This document shows, piece after piece, positions 8,043 through 36,305 of a stretch of 36,305 nucleotides of DNA. How positions within the stretch are numbered: position 1 is the stretch's first letter; every line of letters begins with the position of its first letter. The stretch covers positions 1 to 36,305 of the forward strand of contig DBXZ01000009.1 in assembly GCA_002309795.1 (NCBI GenBank), in the 5' to 3' direction. Origin of the DNA: Bacteroidales bacterium UBA1199. Its GTDB lineage: Bacteria > Bacteroidota > Bacteroidia > Bacteroidales > UBA932. The position numbers and the translations under genes are program-made. The notes beneath the pieces are model-generated. The model saw only the letters and a program-made list of their open reading frames with translations, was not told where the DNA came from and did no database searches.

Positions 8043-11000
8043 CTATTTGGATTTGTCCGGGGCTGCGGGAGTGCCGGGAAGCGGCTTGTAGGACGTGAGC
8101 TCTTCCTTCAGGACGGAGATGGCTTTGTCCAGCTGGGCGTCGCGGCCCAGGTAGTCCTCGAAGGGATTGATGTCCACATCGATGTCGGGATCTACGCCGT
8201 GACCCTCAATAATCCACTGACCTTCCGTAGAATAGGAGGTGAAGAACGGGGTGCGCATATCCTGCCCGTCAATGAAGCGCTTGGAGGAGGAGATGCCGAC
8301 GATACCGCCCCAGGAGCGTTTACCGATCAGTTTACCCAGGCCAAGCTTGCGGAAGCCGTACGGGAAGAGGTCGCCGTCGGAGGATGAATACTTGTCGATC
8401 AGGCAGACCTTCGGGCCGTAGTGGGTCTGGGCGGGAACCGTACCGTTCATACCGTTGCGGTACATGTTCATGCGGTAAACCTCACGCTGGAGGCGCTCGA
8501 GGATCATCGGGGAGACATTACCACCGCCGTTCATACGGTCGTCGATAATGAGGGCCTTCTTGTCGAGCTGGGTGTAGAAGAGTTTCGTGAACATGTCGAG
8601 ACCTTCGCGGCCCATGTCGGGGATATGGATATAGCCGATTTCACCGTTCGAAGCCTTGTCGACCTTCTCGATATTCTGGCAAACCCACTCATAATAAGCC
8701 AGGTTGGATTCGTCGGAGACGGGTTTCACGTAGACGGTACGGAGGCCCTTCTTGCCGGCAGCGTCGGATGCGAGGACGATGGGGACAATCTTGTCGACCT
8801 TACCGACGAGGGGCTCAGTGATGTCCTGCAGCTTGGAGGCTTCGAAACCGTTGACCTTGACGATGTATTCACCGACCTTGGCAGCCACTGCCGGATCGCC
8901 GAGCGGCGAACGGAGGCTCTTGTCCCAGGTAGCGCCGCGGTAGACCTTCTCGATCTTGAAGTTGCCGGTAGCCTTGTCGCGGCTGAAGCGCGCGCCGAGC
9001 AGACCGGTAGCGATACGCGGAATCTCGGGGAGTTCACCCGGGGAAACATACGCGTGACCCACGTTCAGTTCGCCGACCATCTCGCCCAGGATATAGGTAA
9101 GATCGTGACGGTGACGGACATACGGCAGCAGTGCAGCATATTTGTCGTGGATGGCGTTCCAGTCTACGCCGTGCATATTCTCTACGTAGAAACCGTCGCG
9201 GGTGATGCGCCAGCTCTCTTCGAAGATCTGCTTCCATTCGGCCTGGTGGTCGATCAGCATATCCATATCGGACATGGCGAGCGGCTCTTCCAGACGGCCT
9301 GCACCGTTGGGACCGAAGGAGGTCACATAGAACTTGCCGGCGTCGGAGACGAGGGCTTTCTTGTGGTCTGCCGTCAGGGCGAGCGGAGCCTTCTTGCCGG
9401 CTTCGCTGCTCTTCAGCGTCTTCAGATCAAGTGCCTGCAGGCCAGGACCTCCACCCTGCGGACCGCGCGGACCTGGACCGCCCGGCATGCCGTTGAAGGA
9501 GGAGTAAAAGAGTTTGCCGTTGCAAGCGGCCACAATGCGATAGCGGCCGGGAGCCGGCGGCAGGCAGACGATACGGGATGCAAGACCGTTGACATCGACC
9601 TTGGTAACAGGTTTTGCCTCAGGTTTTTCAGGCTTTTCCGGCTTGCCGGGCCTGTCGCCGTTCGGGCCCTTGGGACCCGGGCCGGGACGGCCTTCCGGAG
9701 CAGCGGGCCTGTCGCCAGCCTGGTCCGGTTCGATGGCCGTCAGGATGGGCGTATCGGCTGCCAGGGAGAGAGCAAAGAGCTGGCTTGCAATCGAATAGGA
9801 TGCGTTCCATTCCACAGAGGAGTACTGCGGCGTGAGGGTGCGCGAAGAGACGAAGAAGAGGTACTTGCCATCGTCCGAGAACTCCGGCTGCGAAGCGTCG
9901 AACCAGCGGTCGGTGACCTGGTAGGACTTGCCGGTCGCTACCTCATAGAGGTAGATGGCTGTCACCTCATTGGGCAGACCCACAGCGTAAGCAGCCCAGG
10001 TGCCGTCCGGCGAGAGGGTGAAGTTACGGTAGCCGGTGGTCTCGGAGACCAGGATGCGGTCGAGCGCACGGGTATCGGTATCCAGGCAGTAGATATCGCG
10101 TTTCTCGGTGGAGAAGTAAACCTTTCTGGAATCGGGCGACCAGAGCAGGCCCTGCGGATAACCGGAGGTGAACTGGGTGAGGGCCTCCCCTTTCGCCAGA
10201 TCGGAAGCGGGAGCCACAAAGATCTGATACTCACCGCCCAGATCGGAGATGTAGGCCACCTTCTTTCCGTCCGGCGACCACTCCACTGCACGCTCGTGCG
10301 CGCCCGGGGTGCGGGTGATATTGGTAACGGCGCCCTTGCCGACCGGAAGTTCGAAGAGGTCGCCGCGGCCGATCATGATCACGCGGCTGCCATCCGGCGA
10401 AAGCGTGTAGCCGCTGATGTTCTTGGAGGCGGAGCCCATCTCGGTGCGGCCGTAGATGGCGTCGCTGGCCAGACGGATGGTAACCTTCTCGCACGCGCCG
10501 GTCTTGACCGTGTATTTATAGATGTAACCGCCATTCTCGAAGACGATGTAATCCTTTGAGAACGAGGGGAATTTGCAGTCATATTCCGTGAAGTTCGTCA
10601 CCTTGCGTGTAGCCTTCGAACGGGTGTTGTAGGCAAAGAGGTTCATCGTGCGGTCGCGGTCGGAGAAGTAGAAAATCTCGTCGCCGATCCACATCGGGAA
10701 GATATCCTGAGCCTCAGGGTCGCAACCCTCGATGCGCTCGATCTTGGTGGTACCTACCTTATGGATCCAGATGTCGTCGGCCTGGCCGCCGCGATAATAC
10801 TTCCAGGTGCGGAATTCGCGGAACATCCGGTTCATAGCCAGCTGTTTACCGTCGGGAGAATAGGAGCAGAAGCCGCCCTCCGAAGTGGGGATATCCACCG
10901 GGGTGCCGCCGTTCATGGCGACCTTTTGGAGCTGGCCGCGCAGGCCGCTGAAGCACCACTGCTTGTTGCGGAAGACAATCTCTTTGCCGTCCGGAGTCCA

Positions 11001-11384
11001 GCACATCACGATGTTGTTGGGACCCATGCGTTCACCCACCAGGTCGCGGCCTACGAGAGCCGTGTAGGTCAAGCGTTTAGGCTCGCCGCCGGTGATAGGC
11101 ATCGAGTAGACTTCGGTGTTGCCGTCGTACTGGCCCGTGAAGGCGATGGTCTTGCCGTCGGGCGAGATGCGCGGGAAAACTTCGTAGCCGACGTGGGAGG
11201 TCAGGCGGGTAGCGAGACCGCCGTCGATACCGACCCGGTAGAGGTCGCCGGCGTAGGAGAAGACAATCTGGTCACCGCCGACTGCCGGAAAACGGAGCAG
11301 GCGGGCCTCGTCGTCACCGGAGGTTCCGGCTGCAAAGGCGCAGACCGGAAGAAGCAATGCGAGAAGCGTAAAAATGCGTTTCAT
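8043..11384 (-). CDS. Secreted Tricorn-like S41 family peptidase
   Basis: A large exported protease of 1113 aa, the size of Tricorn proteins. The signal peptide MKRIFTLLALLLPVCAFAAG has a signal-peptidase I site after AFA, so it is likely periplasmic. Residues about 30-530 carry repeated WD40/TolB-type blades (for example SPDGKTIAFTGQYDGNTEVY, WSPDGKKVAYISD, SPDGSRVIMIGRGD). Two Pro/Gly-rich low-complexity stretches follow (about 555-600 and 632-645). The C-terminal half has the Tricorn C1 domain (MHGVDWNAIHDKYAALLPYV), VGHAYV with the likely catalytic His, a PDZ-like segment, DRMNGGGNVSP near 950 and YSSSDGDLFPYGF near 1000, where Ser should be the nucleophile. Known Tricorns are cytosolic in archaea; secreted forms are common in Bacteroidota, and the natural substrate is unknown. 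A 10-nt-period AAACG repeat lies in its leader. Confidence 0.93.
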   Translation of the reverse strand: MKRIFTLLALLLPVCAFAAGTSGDDEARLLRFPAVGGDQIVFSYAGDLYRVGIDGGLATRLTSHVGYEVFPRISPDGKTIAFTGQYDGNTEVYSMPITGGEPKRLTYTALVGRDLVGERMGPNNIVMCWTPDGKEIVFRNKQWCFSGLRGQLQKVAMNGGTPVDIPTSEGGFCSYSPDGKQLAMNRMFREFRTWKYYRGGQADDIWIHKVGTTKIERIEGCDPEAQDIFPMWIGDEIFYFSDRDRTMNLFAYNTRSKATRKVTNFTEYDCKFPSFSKDYIVFENGGYIYKYTVKTGACEKVTIRLASDAIYGRTEMGSASKNISGYTLSPDGSRVIMIGRGDLFELPVGKGAVTNITRTPGAHERAVEWSPDGKKVAYISDLGGEYQIFVAPASDLAKGEALTQFTSGYPQGLLWSPDSRKVYFSTEKRDIYCLDTDTRALDRILVSETTGYRNFTLSPDGTWAAYAVGLPNEVTAIYLYEVATGKSYQVTDRWFDASQPEFSDDGKYLFFVSSRTLTPQYSSVEWNASYSIASQLFALSLAADTPILTAIEPDQAGDRPAAPEGRPGPGPKGPNGDRPGKPEKPEKPEAKPVTKVDVNGLASRIVCLPPAPGRYRIVAACNGKLFYSSFNGMPGGPGPRGPQGGGPGLQALDLKTLKSSEAGKKAPLALTADHKKALVSDAGKFYVTSFGPNGAGRLEEPLAMSDMDMLIDHQAEWKQIFEESWRITRDGFYVENMHGVDWNAIHDKYAALLPYVRHRHDLTYILGEMVGELNVGHAYVSPGELPEIPRIATGLLGARFSRDKATGNFKIEKVYRGATWDKSLRSPLGDPAVAAKVGEYIVKVNGFEASKLQDITEPLVGKVDKIVPIVLASDAAGKKGLRTVYVKPVSDESNLAYYEWVCQNIEKVDKASNGEIGYIHIPDMGREGLDMFTKLFYTQLDKKALIIDDRMNGGGNVSPMILERLQREVYRMNMYRNGMNGTVPAQTHYGPKVCLIDKYSSSDGDLFPYGFRKLGLGKLIGKRSWGGIVGISSSKRFIDGQDMRTPFFTSYSTEGQWIIEGHGVDPDIDVDINPFEDYLGRDAQLDKAISVLKEELTSYKPLPGTPAAPDKSK

Positions 11385-11410: not shown

Positions 11411-11447
11411 GACGTTTATAAACGTTTAGTTTAGTTTAGTTTCGTTT
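11411..11447 (-). repeat. 10-nt-period AAACG direct repeat, leader of the Tricorn-like gene
   Basis: Read on the coding (minus) strand, the units are AAACG, AAACT, AAACG and AAACG. Their + strand complements start at 11443, 11433, 11423 and 11413, an exact 10-nt period. The nearest unit lies 28 nt before the ATG. It belongs to the same family as the repeats before rimO, yajC, ftcD and hutU. Confidence 0.7.
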
Positions 11448-19092: not shown

Positions 19093-20415
19093 TTATAACG
19101 GCTCACCGAGCAGGTCGTACTCGCCGGCGGCCGTAATCTTACATTCTGCGAATGTACCGATAATTTGTGAGGATTGCAACCCTTTCTGGTGGAAAGCCGC
19201 TTCACTGACCAGAATTTCGCCGTCCACTTCGGGGGATTCCCACTGGGAACGGCCCACCAGAACGCCGTCCTGCACGCTGTCGAAGAGCACGCGGGCGGTG
19301 GTGCCGATCCGGGCGGTGTTGAAGGCGGCGGAGATGCCGCTCTGGGCCTCCATCAGGCGGTCGTAGCGCTCCTGCTTGACTTTGGCGGGGATGCTGTCTT
19401 TGAGGTGTTTGGCGCCCCAGGTCCCCTCCTCTTCCGAATACTGGAAGGCGCCCATGCGCTCGAAGCGGGCTTCGCGTACGAAGTCCAGCAGTTCCGCGAA
19501 AGCGGCCTCGTCTTCGCCGGGGTGGCCCACCATCAGGGTGGTGCGCAACACGACGCCGGGAACCCTCTTGCGGATTCGCTCGATCAGCGCGCGGGTCTGG
19601 CGGCCGTCAATGCTGCGGCGCATGGCGGCGAGCACCGGATCGGCGATATGCTGGAGCGGAATGTCCAGGTATTTGCAAAGTTTGGGCTCGGAGGCCATCA
19701 GGTCCAGTACCTCCTCCGGAAATCCGTCCGGATAGGAGTAGTGCAGCCGGATCCATTCGATGCCCCTGACGGCGGCGAGCCTTTCCAGCAGCGGGGCCAG
19801 CTGGCGTTTGCCGTAGAGGTCCAGGCCGTACCAGGTGGTGTCTTGTGCAATGACTATCAGCTCCTTGACGCCGGCAGCGGCCAGGGCTTGCGCCTCGTCC
19901 ACAAGTTGCTCCATGGGCACCGAAACGTGCGGGCCGCGGATGAGCGGAATGGCGCAGTAGGAGCAGCGCCGGTCGCACCCTTCGGCAATCTTGAGATAGG
20001 CGTAGTGCGAAGGGGTGGTGAGGTGGCGGCGGGCGGCGAGCTCGGGACGGTGCGGGAGGCCGAGGGCCGCGAGAATCGCGGCGTGGTCGGCGGCGCCGAA
20101 GAAGCCGTCGACCTCCGGCAGGAGGCCGGGCAACTCGGCCGCGTAGCGCTGGGAGAGGCAACCGAATACGAAGATGTGGCGGATCATCCCCTCACGCTTG
20201 GCGCTGCCTGCCTGGAGAATCATCCCGATGGATTCCTCCTTGGCGTCGCCTATGAAGCCGCAGGTGTTGATCAGGACGGTGTCGACGCCGGCCGCCTCCA
20301 GGGGCTCTCCTTCCGGGGAAATCCCCCACCCCGCCGCGGCTATCTGCCGCAGCAGGTGCTCGGAGTCCACCCGGTTCTTCGAGCAGCCCATGGTTATCAG
20401 TTGAACTTTGGGCAT
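19093..20415 (-). CDS. rimO: Ribosomal protein S12 methylthiotransferase RimO
   Basis: Radical-SAM enzyme that adds a methylthio group to an Asp of ribosomal protein S12. The 440 aa product has the full order: an N-terminal UPF0004 domain with a cluster-binding Cys in TMGCSKNRVDSE and a further one in NTCGFI, the radical SAM motif CDRRCSYC near residues 147-154, then a TRAM domain at the end. The sequence GCSKNRVDSE separates RimO from the related MiaB, whose start reads more like TYGCQMN. It lies between the DUF5606 gene (32 nt upstream, with AAACG repeats in the gap) and fabG (10 nt downstream). Confidence 0.96.
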   Translation of the reverse strand: MPKVQLITMGCSKNRVDSEHLLRQIAAAGWGISPEGEPLEAAGVDTVLINTCGFIGDAKEESIGMILQAGSAKREGMIRHIFVFGCLSQRYAAELPGLLPEVDGFFGAADHAAILAALGLPHRPELAARRHLTTPSHYAYLKIAEGCDRRCSYCAIPLIRGPHVSVPMEQLVDEAQALAAAGVKELIVIAQDTTWYGLDLYGKRQLAPLLERLAAVRGIEWIRLHYSYPDGFPEEVLDLMASEPKLCKYLDIPLQHIADPVLAAMRRSIDGRQTRALIERIRKRVPGVVLRTTLMVGHPGEDEAAFAELLDFVREARFERMGAFQYSEEEGTWGAKHLKDSIPAKVKQERYDRLMEAQSGISAAFNTARIGTTARVLFDSVQDGVLVGRSQWESPEVDGEILVSEAAFHQKGLQSSQIIGTFAECKITAAGEYDLLGEPL

Positions 20416-20424
20416 CGCCGGAGC

Positions 20425-20449
20425 CGTCTTTAAACGTTTAATTACGCTT
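20425..20449 (-). repeat. 10-nt-period AAACG direct repeat, leader of rimO
   Basis: On the minus strand the units read AAGCG, AAACG and AGACG; the + strand complements start at 20445, 20435 and 20425, an exact 10-nt period. The nearest unit starts 10 nt from the rimO ATG and the farthest overlaps the DUF5606 stop. Confidence 0.6.
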
Positions 20450-33082: not shown

Positions 33083-33370
33083 ATGCACACCTTCAGCATC
33101 TGGGAGGTTCTCTTCCTCCTCTGTTTCGCGGTCAGCTGGCCTATCTCGATTGCCAAATCGCTGCGTACCAAAGTCGTAATCGGGAAAAGCCCCATCTTCA
33201 TGGGACTCATCATCCTGGGTTATATCTTCGGCATTGTCCACAAACTGCTGCACAACCCGGACATCGTGACCTGGCTGTACGTGTTCAATGCTACGCTTGT
33301 GGCAATTGACCTGGCACTCTACTTCACCTACGTGGGTAGAAACCGGCGCGAGTTACTGAACAAGAAGTAG
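33083..33370 (+). CDS. Small PQ-loop/SemiSWEET-like membrane protein
   Basis: 95 aa from the ATG at 33083, one base after the CoA-transferase stop, so under the same riboswitch. About three membrane segments are visible: WEVLFLLCFAVSWPISIA (8-25), GLIILGYIFGIVHKLL (41-56) and WLYVFNATLVAIDLALYFTY (64-83). The pattern SWPISIAKSLRTKVVIGKSP resembles the first helix and loop of PQ-loop (SemiSWEET) transporters, where a Pro in helix 1 is followed by a basic loop. It could be a solute exporter for the acid handled by the CoA-transferase, which is inference. The open frame begins upstream at 32969 but would overlap the CoA-transferase. Confidence 0.7.
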   Translation: MHTFSIWEVLFLLCFAVSWPISIAKSLRTKVVIGKSPIFMGLIILGYIFGIVHKLLHNPDIVTWLYVFNATLVAIDLALYFTYVGRNRRELLNKK

Positions 33371-33374
33371 TTAA

Positions 33375-33782
33375 TCAGTAGTTGAAGGAGATGGTCTCCT
33401 TGATGTCGGGATGCAGACTGTTCCCGACCGGGCAGGTCTTGGCCGCATTCTCGATGATGGTCTTCTCCCTGGCCGTGTAATTATTGCCTTCGGGGAAGTT
33501 GATTTCGAGGTGAAGCTCCGCTACGCGGCGGGGGTTCGCAGCCATCACTTTCTCGGTGGTAACCGTCGTCCCGTCGATGCTGAAACCATGCGTTCGGGCA
33601 GCGATTCCCATAATAGTTAACATGCAGCAACCCAGCGAGGTAGCGAAGAGATCGGTGGGCGAGAAGCAATCGCCTTCGCCGTTGTTGTCCTTGGGCGCGG
33701 AGGTCATGATCTTTGCGCCCGAATCGAGGTGGACGGCCTCGCAATGGAGGTTGCCCACGTAGGTTGTTTTCATCTTGGTCAT
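33375..33782 (-). CDS. OsmC family protein
   Basis: 135 aa OsmC/YhfA-type protein, usually a thiol-dependent peroxidase of the cytosol. The central FSPTDLFATSLGCCMLTIMG contains C52 and C53, and the later AAKTCPVGNSLHPD contains C117, the expected pair of reactive cysteine sites. The start MTKMKTTYVG is plausible; an ATG at the fourth codon is an alternative. It is transcribed convergently with the small membrane protein gene and divergently from ftcD. Confidence 0.9.
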   Translation of the reverse strand: MTKMKTTYVGNLHCEAVHLDSGAKIMTSAPKDNNGEGDCFSPTDLFATSLGCCMLTIMGIAARTHGFSIDGTTVTTEKVMAANPRRVAELHLEINFPEGNNYTAREKTIIENAAKTCPVGNSLHPDIKETISFNY

Positions 33783-33807
33783 AGCGGTCTTTCGGTTTTC
33801 TTGTCTA

Positions 33808-33815
33808 CAAAGTTA
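33808..33815 (-). promoter_or_regulatory. -7 box for the OsmC gene
   Basis: TAACTTTG on the minus strand (33815 to 33808) fits TAnnTTTG, 25 nt before the ATG. No clear -33 box. Confidence 0.5.
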
Positions 33816-33876
33816 AACATTTAAAAGAATCGGGCCCGAAAATCTAAAAAATATGCGTACCTTTACCGATTGCAAT

Positions 33877-33921
33877 AAACGTTATTAAACGTTTAAAAAC
33901 GATTACAAACGAAACAAAACG
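33877..33921 (+). repeat. 10-nt-period AAACG direct repeat, leader of ftcD
   Basis: Five exact AAACG pentamers start at 33877, 33887, 33897, 33907 and 33917, each followed by a five-base variable spacer (TTATT, TTTAA, ATTAC, AAACA). The last ends 3 nt before the ftcD ATG. It is the best-preserved copy of the repeat in the window. A TACCTTTA at 33858-33865 may be the -7 box. Confidence 0.85.
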
Positions 33922-33924
33922 CAT

Positions 33925-35634
33925 ATGAAACAACTGATTGAATGTGTCCCCAACTATAGCGAGGGACGTGACCGCGCGGTGATTGACAAGATTGTCGCCG
34001 CTATCGCCACCGTAAAAGGCGTCAAAGTGCTTGACGTTGACCCCGGCGAGGCCACCAACCGTACCGTCGTAACCTTTGTAGGATCGCCGGAAGATGTCTG
34101 CGAGGCAGCTTTCCGCGGCGCTGCCAAGGCCCAGGAACTGATTGACATGCGTGTGCATCACGGCGCACATCCCCGTTCGGGAGCCACCGACGTGCTTCCG
34201 CTGATTCCTGTGTCGGGCATTACGCTCGAAGAGTGCGCTTCATTGGCCAGAGAGCTTGCGAAGCGTCTTTTTGTTGAACTGGGTATTCCCTGCTATTGCT
34301 ATGAGGCTGCCGCTTTCAAGCCTGAGCGCAAGAACCTGGCTGTGTGCCGCGCCGGCGAATACGAGGCGCTGCCCGAAAAGGTTGCCGATCCCGAACGCCG
34401 TCCGGACTTCTCGCCGGAAAGCTGGAATGAGGTCGCGGCCCGCAGCGGCGCTACCAACGTGGGCGCCCGCAACTTCCTGGTGGCTGTGAACTACAACCTC
34501 AACACCACCTCCACCCGCCGTGCGATGGCTGTCGCATTCGACGTCCGCGAAAAGGGCCGCAAAGCCCGCGAAGGCGGCTCGCTCACCGGCAAGCTGCTGA
34601 AGGATGAGAACGGCGAGCAGATCTGGATCCCCGGCACGCTCAAGGGCTGCAAGGCAATCGGTTGGTATATTGATGAATACGGCATTGCCCAGGTATCGAT
34701 GAACATCACCGATATCGAAGCTACGCCGCTCCACGTGGCTTACGAAGAGGTGTGCCGTGCTGCAGCAGCCCGCGGTCTGAAGGTGACGGGCGCCGAGATT
34801 GTGGGCCTCGTGCCCAAGAAGGTGCTGATGGAAGCAGGCCGTTTCTACCTGGCCCGCCAGCAGCGTTCACTCGGTATCGACGAAGAGGAGATCCTGAAGA
34901 TTGCCGTGAAGTCGATGTCGCTCGACGACCTCAAGCCGTTCAACCCCAAAGAGAAGATTATCGAATACCTGATGCAGGACGAGACCGAGGAGGCGCGCAG
35001 GCACCGCCTGATCCGGATGACGGCAGAGGGTTTTGCCAAGGAGACCGCTTCCGAATCGCCCGCTCCGGGCGGCGGATCCATCTCCGCATACATGGGCGCG
35101 CTCGCTGCTGCGCTCGCTACGATGGTTGCCAACCTCTCGAGCCACAAGCGCGGCTGGGACGACCGTTGGGAAGAGTTCTCCAACGTCGCCGAGAAGGGCC
35201 AGGCGCTGATGCGCGAACTGCTGGACCTGGTGGATGAAGACACCGCCGCATTCGACCGCATCATGGACTGCTTCTCGATGCCGAAGAATACGGAAGAAGA
35301 GAAGGCTGCCCGCGCCGCTGCACTGGAAGAGGCAACGCTCTACGCCGCATCGGTTCCGCTCCGCACCATGGAGGCCTGCCTGAAGGCACTTCCGCTGGCC
35401 AAAGAGATGGCCGTGAAGGGCAATCCCGCTTCCGCATCGGATGCCGGCGTGGCTGCACTGGCCGCCGTTGCAGGTATCCGCGGCGCCGAACTCAACGTCC
35501 GCATCAACGCTTCCGGCCTGAAAGACAAGACCCCTGCCCTGCCGCTGATCGAGCGTGCTGCAGAGATTGTCCGCGAGGCTGCCGTCCTGCAGGGCGAAGT
35601 GCTCGAGGCTGTGAACGGCCACATCGACGCCTAG
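33925..35634 (+). CDS. ftcD: Bifunctional glutamate formimidoyltransferase / formiminotetrahydrofolate cyclodeaminase
   Basis: Two steps of histidine breakdown in one 569 aa protein: transfer of the formimino group from formiminoglutamate to tetrahydrofolate, then deamination to methenyl-THF. The N-terminal transferase (about 1-300) begins IECVPNYSEGRD and has the HHGAHPRSGATD motif with H82, the catalytic His of mammalian FTCD. The C-terminal cyclodeaminase (about 360-569) opens FAKETASESPAPGGGSISA, the diagnostic cyclodeaminase start, and ends with LKDKTPALPLI in the last helices. hutU follows on the same strand 57 nt later with the same repeat in the gap, so both are likely in one hut operon. 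Confidence 0.95.
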   Translation: MKQLIECVPNYSEGRDRAVIDKIVAAIATVKGVKVLDVDPGEATNRTVVTFVGSPEDVCEAAFRGAAKAQELIDMRVHHGAHPRSGATDVLPLIPVSGITLEECASLARELAKRLFVELGIPCYCYEAAAFKPERKNLAVCRAGEYEALPEKVADPERRPDFSPESWNEVAARSGATNVGARNFLVAVNYNLNTTSTRRAMAVAFDVREKGRKAREGGSLTGKLLKDENGEQIWIPGTLKGCKAIGWYIDEYGIAQVSMNITDIEATPLHVAYEEVCRAAAARGLKVTGAEIVGLVPKKVLMEAGRFYLARQQRSLGIDEEEILKIAVKSMSLDDLKPFNPKEKIIEYLMQDETEEARRHRLIRMTAEGFAKETASESPAPGGGSISAYMGALAAALATMVANLSSHKRGWDDRWEEFSNVAEKGQALMRELLDLVDEDTAAFDRIMDCFSMPKNTEEEKAARAAALEEATLYAASVPLRTMEACLKALPLAKEMAVKGNPASASDAGVAALAAVAGIRGAELNVRINASGLKDKTPALPLIERAAEIVREAAVLQGEVLEAVNGHIDA

Positions 35635-35642
35635 TCGTAATC

Positions 35643-35677
35643 AAACGAAAAGAAACGTAACTAAACGTTTAAAAACG
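35643..35677 (+). repeat. 10-nt-period AAACG direct repeat, leader of hutU
   Basis: Four exact AAACG copies start at 35643, 35653, 35663 and 35673, a perfect 10-nt period, filling most of the 57-nt gap between ftcD and hutU. The last ends 14 nt before the hutU ATG. Confidence 0.8.
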
Positions 35678-35691
35678 GATAACATTCCACC

Positions 35692-36305
35692 ATGAATAAA
35701 TTCCAAGAAGCCATCCTGGCCGGTATTCCGGACATTCTGCCGGAGGCACGGCCCTACGACCCGGCGGTGAACCACGCGCCGCGTCGCAAGGAGATTCTCA
35801 CCCCTGAAGAGAAGGTGCTCGCCCTGAAGAACGCGCTGCGTTACTTCCCGCAGAAACACCACGCCGCACTGGCGCCGGAGTTCGCACAGGAACTCGAGAC
35901 CTACGGCCGCATCTATATGTACCGGTTCCGTCCGACCTATGAGATGTACGCCCGTCCCATCAACGAATATCCCGCCAAGTGCGCCCAGGCTGCAGCCATC
36001 ATGGCCATGATCCAGAACAACCTGGACCCGCGTGTGGCGCAGCATCCCCACGAACTCATCACCTACGGCGGCAACGGCGCCGTCTTCCAGAACTGGGCAC
36101 AGTACCTGCTCACCATGCAGTACCTGGCCACGATGACGGAAGAGCAGACGCTTGCCATGTTTTCCGGCACGCCGATGGGCCTCTTCCCGTCGCACAAGGA
36201 CGCGCCGCGCGTGGTGGTGACCAACGGTATGGTGATTCCGAACTATTCGAAACCGGACCACTGGGAGAAGTTCAACGCACTGGGTGTCAGCCAGTACGGC
36301 CAGAT
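35692..36305 (+). CDS. hutU: Urocanate hydratase, 5' part (runs off the window)
   Basis: Converts urocanate to imidazolonepropionate in histidine degradation. The first 204 codons are present and the frame continues past 36305. The product matches the long Bacteroidota form: an N-terminal extension (MNKFQEAILAGIPDILPE) precedes the family core with ITYGGNGAVFQNWAQYLLTM, MFSGTPMGLFPSH, VVTNGMVIPNY and, at the edge, GVSQYGQ. The catalytic NAD-binding region is beyond the window. ATG at 35692 follows the AAACG repeat. hutI and hutH probably lie downstream, unseen. Confidence 0.93.
   Translation, partial: MNKFQEAILAGIPDILPEARPYDPAVNHAPRRKEILTPEEKVLALKNALRYFPQKHHAALAPEFAQELETYGRIYMYRFRPTYEMYARPINEYPAKCAQAAAIMAMIQNNLDPRVAQHPHELITYGGNGAVFQNWAQYLLTMQYLATMTEEQTLAMFSGTPMGLFPSHKDAPRVVVTNGMVIPNYSKPDHWEKFNALGVSQYGQ

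Follow-up and report, generated by a model that had tools for sequence, protein, structure and literature searches.

Phased AAACG arrays in the window

The window, that is, the whole stretch of DNA analysed here, comprises 36,305 nt of contig DBXZ01000009.1 from Bacteroidales bacterium UBA1199 (GCA_002309795.1), and its genes were named from NCBIfam matches. Two of these genes, ftcD and hutU, are each preceded by an array of AAACG units (Table 1). The ATG of ftcD is located 3 nt past the last unit of its array, and the hutU array sits between the ftcD stop codon and the hutU start codon. The encoded FtcD has a C-terminal fusion that resembles methenyltetrahydrofolate cyclohydrolase, with a match below the cutoff of that model. 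The hutU match is also below cutoff, as the gene is cut by the window end. Upstream of the ftcD array lies a promoter-like TACCTTTAC, which we take to resemble the Bacteroidota −7 box TAnnTTTG; with this box as promoter, the ftcD array would fall within the 5′ leader.

Table 1. Genes, arrays, and promoter-like element of the window
Feature	Positions	Strand	Remarks
TolB-propeller / S41 peptidase-like large gene	8043..11384	−	Family matches below cutoffs
Third array, 10-nt period	11413..11447	−	AAACG 11447, AAACT 11437, AAACG 11427, AAACG 11417
Weaker run, three phased CG cores	20422..20449	−	Relaxed scan
Promoter-like TACCTTTAC	33858..33866	+	Read from sequence
ftcD array, five AAACG	33877..33921	+	Starts 33877, 33887, 33897, 33907, 33917; exact 10-nt period
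ftcD, glutamate formimidoyltransferase	33925..35634	+	NCBIfam TIGR02024, 331.8 bits, above cutoff
hutU array, four AAACG	35643..35677	+	Starts 35643, 35653, 35663, 35673; 10-nt period
hutU, urocanate hydratase	35692..36303	+	NCBIfam TIGR01228, partial

The five units before ftcD and the four before hutU, at exact 10-nt steps, had been described in the original prediction and were confirmed here; the three-unit AAACG pattern did not occur in any of 100 dinucleotide shuffles of the window. Beyond these two arrays, the window contains a third array, downstream of which lies the TolB-propeller/S41 peptidase-like gene, and a weaker run just upstream of an ORF starting at 20415 on the same strand. 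When CG cores flanked by AAA/TTT were counted at lag 10, the window had 2 runs of at least 3 cores compared with 0 in each of 200 shuffles, and 5 runs of at least 2 cores compared with a shuffle mean of 0.165 (largest 3). The spacers, which had been thought unrelated to each other, are not fully so: both hut arrays contain AAACGTTTAAAAACG in common, and across relatives the spacer shows a preference for TA.

A consensus of TA-n-[AC]-CG-TTT-A emerges from the 70 phased boxes found at small-ssb promoters in the genus (described below), with A at position −3 in 93% of them, and the 479 boxes of all the sites with an exact triple of AAACG units have the same base preferences. We write this box TAnMCGTTTA, or TAAACGKnTA on the other strand.

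Conservation of the arrays in orthologous leaders

The closest FtcD relatives come mostly from rumen and gut Bacteroidales, and the nearest (locus L001 of genome G001, the sheep rumen MAG RGIG7030) is 96% identical. Inspection of the 90 nt upstream of ftcD in 80 loci of FtcD relatives, L001 included, revealed the array in none of them; the L001 leader keeps a TACCTTTAC-like promoter-like stretch, is shorter, and lacks the array. Before hutU, L001 has three AAACG units. A hutU match was found in 27 of the 40 genomes of the genus, and among the 28 leaders inspected, the array was present in that of G001 alone. In a hand alignment, at the right end, of the hutU array of the window with the homologous stretch of L001, the cores differ at 1 of 20 positions and the spacers at 7 of 20. 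These differences, together with spacers that vary within and between arrays, led us to reject a simple tandem repeat. Among 30 leaders fetched for orthologues of the S41 gene, that of genome G260 (L300) contains the array and the other 29 do not.

This near-absence from orthologous leaders makes the window arrays at ftcD, hutU, and the S41 gene look young. In the original prediction, absence from such leaders, combined with no binding protein and no effect of mutation, had been named as a refutation, as had a lack of enrichment over shuffled sequence. The outcome is divided: the motif is enriched (see below), but among the hutU orthologues examined, the array occurs in the window and its nearest relative only, and the ftcD array is missing from that relative.

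Enrichment of phased units in the genus

In G001 (764 kb), AAACG/CGTTT is the top-scoring 5-mer for lag 10, with 16 pairs compared with 1.4 from the neighbouring lags, and the signal echoes at lags 20 and 30. Runs of at least 3 CG cores flanked by AAA/TTT number 5 at lag 10 and 0 at lags 7–9 and 11–15, and the control cores GC, CC, GG, and TG gave 0 runs at lags 9–11. In genome G266, the top 5-mer is another one than AAACG; flanked CG cores form 2 runs at lag 10 and 1 at lag 14, CG-box pairs number 6 at lag 11 and 3 at lag 10, and intergenic runs number 5 at lag 11 compared with 2 at lag 10. An AAACG cluster of mixed spacings including 11 nt, near 35461–35540 of G266:C1, adds to the lag-11 count.

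The exact triple was found in 28 of the 40 genomes of the genus, compared with 2 of 40 for a reversed-pattern control. The corresponding counts are 66 and 28 of 299 genomes in the family, 38 and 26 of 259 in the family outside the genus, and 17 and 30 of 393 in the order, the control counts being our own tally from the tables. Enrichment outside the genus is not convincing by genome counts. Counts thus tie the exact triple to the genus; outside it, what speaks is where the arrays are located, not how many there are. The comparison with chance that the original prediction had proposed as a check shows a strong excess of the motif in G001 and in the genus, whereas most of the orthologous leaders examined have no array. 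A perfect AAACG pentamer microsatellite (L362, genome G424) is a false positive of the 10-nt pattern.

Position and orientation of the arrays

The sites examined comprised 105 distinct triples, to which we added the three arrays of the window and the locus L143. Among the 69 sites of the genus, 42 sense and 5 antisense sites lie within 60 nt of a called start; the others are in divergent regions (8), farther off (9), in coding sequence (4), or otherwise placed (1). After the sites were collapsed by hand to ortholog groups, the ratio was 26:5 (one-sided p ~1e-4). The strand bias relative to start codons, which the original prediction had proposed to examine, is therefore strong in the genus; of the 40 sites outside the genus, 4 sense and 3 antisense ones are this close to a start. 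At eight sites (L081, L084, L098, L100, L103, L198, ftcD, and L143), the last unit lies exactly 3 nt before the called ATG. Some arrays are located inside operons, one of them (L082) overlapping the end of the upstream gene, and a promoter-like box precedes some leader arrays. The longest run noted has six abutting boxes (L248).

The genes that follow the G001 sites are aspS-, lgt-, hutU-, C69-peptidase-, amidohydrolase-, and CobW-like, as named from a reading of their translations, most without a family-library run; three of the G001 arrays have AAACGTAAG[T/C]AAACGATTATAAACG in common. A tie to histidine degradation as such is unsupported: the hut operon is one of many array places in the sub-lineage of the window. 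At the hut genes, the arrays appear to have been recently reused in leaders, with a sense bias. In leaders of M6-protease genes, the array begins right after a conserved promoter-like stretch, and some species have AAATG, AAAAG, and similar cores in the same register. When the seven discovery genomes were removed from the 18 leaders of this set, 2 of the remaining 11 had a phased pair; therefore, the M6-protease set adds little.

Several arrays lie near other kinds of genes, named from their sequences or translations: one near a REP-associated-transposase-like gene (L109, genome G239), a five-unit array in two genomes (L108 and L115), flanked by mutS-like and ksgA-like genes in divergent orientation, and triple patterns within a polA-like coding sequence in two family genomes (L226 and L227).

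Phased boxes at small ssb promoters

Among the 105 triple sites, 20 lie at a distance of 59–92 nt from a small ssb start and 5 at 60–72 nt from recA, the SSB and RecA identities being based on Pfam for one example each. The recA arrays come from one set of genomes with near-identical RecA; among 31 recA upstream stretches fetched, one has a phased pair. At both small ssb and recA, the arrays are located upstream of promoter-like boxes and have mixed orientation.

A set of 31 small-ssb promoters of the genus was fetched by orthology, 5 of them from the genomes whose arrays had led us to ssb. These promoters are related, so the counts are not independent. They contain 31 strictly flanked (AAA/TTT) CG pairs at lag 10 and 0 or 1 pair at each of the lags 5–9 and 11–17. 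At least 2 boxes are present in 19 of the 31 promoters with strict flanks and in 23 with relaxed flanks, and at least 3 relaxed boxes in 12, compared with a shuffle mean of 0.02. Without the discovery genomes, the 26 remaining promoters still have 19 pairs at lag 10 compared with 0–1 at other lags, and at least 2 boxes in 14 (strict) or 18 (relaxed). By eye, AAACG and CGTTT boxes share one phase, and the boxes stop close to a −33-like stretch that is followed by TTTACTTTGC-like boxes. Sub-lineage variants of the spacer, TAACT/TAAGT in G260 and TAAGT in G001, were found in the ssb boxes and also in leader arrays of the same sub-lineage, which argues that one factor reads both.

Outside the genus, 3 of the 16 order genomes other than G001 that have a triple carry it ahead of a small ssb gene, at a distance of 113–157 nt (L371, L373, and L375), and a fourth (L367) carries it upstream of a gene for a treble-clef protein (described below). 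A small order-wide ssb set, fetched by orthology and containing none of the discovery genomes, includes 9 first small-ssb genes with 5 strict pairs at lag 10 compared with 0–2 at other lags, and at least 2 boxes in 4 of 9 (strict) or 6 of 9 (relaxed). Among the 21 long-ssb genes of the same order-wide search, none showed this pattern with strict flanks and 1 did with relaxed flanks. Small ssb genes stand in tandem, two or three, in L473, L461, L472, and L373. Thus, phased boxes recur at the promoter of the small ssb paralogue across species, and they are real and genus-enriched.

Comparison with known systems

The known systems are compared here as the available excerpts of the cited papers describe them. 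Operators built of tandem boxes are already known as a kind, and the BldC operators of Streptomyces, 9-bp directional direct repeats AATTXXXXC (PMC5859096), are the closest among those compared. Like the arrays here, they consist of a varying number of short direct repeats with an AT-rich part and a C-G contact; their repeats lie on about one face of the DNA and, in whiI, at −50 to −80 (PMC5859096). BldC repeats are 9 bp long and directional, whereas the arrays here have a period of 10 bp, another consensus (TAnMCGTTTA compared with AATTXXXX(C)), and both orientations in one array, and a BldC-type operator was rejected on the period and the consensus.

The consensus of the LytTR-type regulator AgrA, the 9-nt (TA)(AC)(CA)GTTN(AG)(TG) (quoted in PMC8826819), matches 30 of the 70 small-ssb boxes, 148 of the 479 site boxes, and 4 of the 14 window units, compared with a background of 41 of 1680 unphased CGTTT in G001 and G266, an enrichment that comes partly from AT-rich flanks. 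LytTR sites consist of two repeats separated by 11–13 nt (PMC4847170), whereas the boxes here follow one another directly at 10 bp, up to six in a row, and every second box is 20 bp away, and the strongest extra position here is an A outside the LytTR 9-mer.

Non-canonical LexA repressors of Bacteroidetes bind the palindromes CTAA-N5-TTAG and GGA-N5-TCC, and their targets include recA and, in several species, ssb, as do the arrays here (PMC8565304). We rejected a non-canonical LexA operator, as the box consensus differs from both palindromes. In the excerpt of that paper, both of these repressor groups, as well as the S24-family repressor, are reported absent from Bacteroidales.

Start codons of Bacteroidota without Shine-Dalgarno sites have Kozak-like leaders that are A-rich upstream (PMC6847099). 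The starts here are also preceded by A-rich sequence, with A peaks near −6 and −13, but Kozak-like leaders as described show a general A enrichment, as opposed to the AAACG phased at 10 nt here. We know of no such phased AAACG in Kozak-like leaders. In the literature searched, we found no description of the box, of its 10-bp period with mixed orientation, or of its tie to small ssb in Bacteroidales.

Interpretation of the arrays

The reading that we favour, and hold to be somewhat better than an even bet, is that the repeats form a tandem operator of 10-bp boxes, which a putative protein would read as double-stranded DNA on one helical face, and which has apparently been reused in leaders. Protein binding, cooperativity, and regulation, including its direction, are what we infer from the sequence patterns. 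The phased pairs at small-ssb promoters, the spacer variants found in both contexts, the smaller change of cores than of spacers at hutU, and the lag-10 excess of AAACG in G001 speak for this reading. The putative protein would occupy one face of the helix on TAnMCGTTTA boxes, probably cooperatively. The sub-lineage of the window would have gained arrays before the start codons of hutU, ftcD, and the S41 gene, and G001 before those of aspS, lgt, and others, with the ATG on one side and a promoter-like box or the stop codon of the preceding gene on the other. The simplest effect of protein binding at such a place would be that of an operator or roadblock. A preference for the AAACG strand there may arise because A-rich sequence suits translation initiation in a phylum that does not use Shine-Dalgarno sites. 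Given both orientations and the location upstream of promoter-like boxes at ssb, we read the array as DNA. The suggestion of the original prediction that a protein reads the core once per helical turn is thus the best reading and fits the small-ssb promoters, with direct binding being a suggestion from sequence.

The sense bias in leaders, which a pure reading of DNA does not require, counts against this operator and keeps an RNA-level role possible there. Further points against it are the near-absence of the hutU and ftcD arrays from orthologous leaders, the genome counts outside the genus, the larger lag-11 counts in G266, and the small yield of the M6-protease and recA sets. The leader repeat may act in the mRNA, an A-rich, unstructured or protein-bound 5′ leader determining how mRNAs that lack Shine-Dalgarno sites initiate translation or how stable they are, and the DNA array at ssb would then be a separate use. 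We regard this as rather improbable. It fits the bias of 42:5, the fixed 3-nt distance to the ATG at eight sites, the arrays inside operons, including the one that overlaps the end of an upstream gene, and the promoter-like box before some leaders. It is at odds with the arrays of both orientations upstream of the promoter-like boxes of small ssb and recA, and with the use of one box vocabulary in both promoters and leaders. Predicted folds are weak (z −1.05 and −2.19), and a search of 33300–36305 gave no Rfam match at E up to 1, so that a known structured RNA leader was rejected.

Neutral or mutational spread, through tandem duplication of 10 bp and copying of leaders between genes with little function, could account for the sequence that three G001 arrays have in common and for the differences in array presence between close species. 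We consider it unlikely, given that hutU cores diverge less than spacers, that the arrays recur at orthologous small-ssb promoters, and that boxes on both strands are kept in one phase. Slightly less likely still is that phased short A-tracts act through intrinsic curvature or anisotropic flexibility without a sequence-specific reader. TA and CG steps do alternate in the unit, which presumably resembles the TATAAACGCC bendable repeat, and AAA has a peak near lag 10 in the intergenic DNA of all four Bacteroidales sets (G001, G266, and FtcD loci). While all four sets have this peak, the excess at exactly 10 nt in G001 is specific to AAACG among all 5-mers and is not shared by the control cores; intrinsic bending alone, which the original prediction had considered, is thus discounted as the cause.

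Candidate readers of the boxes

For the tandem operator, two candidate regulators seem most likely: a treble-clef protein whose gene is divergent from that of small ssb, and a LytTR-type factor. The treble-clef protein has mostly 114–124 residues (89–97 in four loci), and this divergent arrangement occurs in many loci of the genus and, elsewhere in the order, in L375, L463, and L472. A strict phased pair within 220 nt upstream was found for 16 of 28 treble-clef genes, and 15 of these genes share the array with ssb. Locus L367, where no ssb match was found, has the array upstream of its treble-clef gene. The copies of G001, L463, and L472 have no strict phased pair within 220 nt upstream. The G001 gene lies ~6.7 kb from ssb on the same contig, and its lack of an upstream pair counts against simple autoregulation.

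Homologues of the treble-clef protein occur widely; Flavobacteriaceae and Cyclobacteriaceae are among the names listed, and some homologues are annotated as "DUF2116 family Zn-ribbon protein". The Pfam match is below cutoff. The predicted model is confident (pLDDT 88.4, pTM 0.63) with weak structural matches, and its C-terminal half may weakly resemble a winged helix. An Arc-like ribbon-helix-helix protein encoded upstream of pgk was rejected as the regulator: it was found in only 19 of 40 genomes and had no match in the array-carrying G001, G260, G227, and G251 (assemblies of unknown completeness).

Implications for Bacteroidales

Bacteroidales are major gut bacteria. We tentatively suggest, as a possibility well short of a probability, that they have their own array-reading regulator on 10-bp boxes, perhaps the treble-clef protein, which would control a set of genes for DNA processing (small ssb and, in one clade, recA), and whose operator would have been recruited into leaders of the genus. 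Neither of the two described groups of SOS repressors of the phylum is reported from Bacteroidales (excerpt of PMC8565304). If the suggestion is true, repeated recruitment has brought the operator into leaders in one genus, among them those of peptidase and amino-acid genes. The putative 10-bp operator at small-ssb promoters offers a DNA bait with which a regulator of DNA processing could be sought in this order, and its appearance before further genes of a single genus would show operator recruitment at work.
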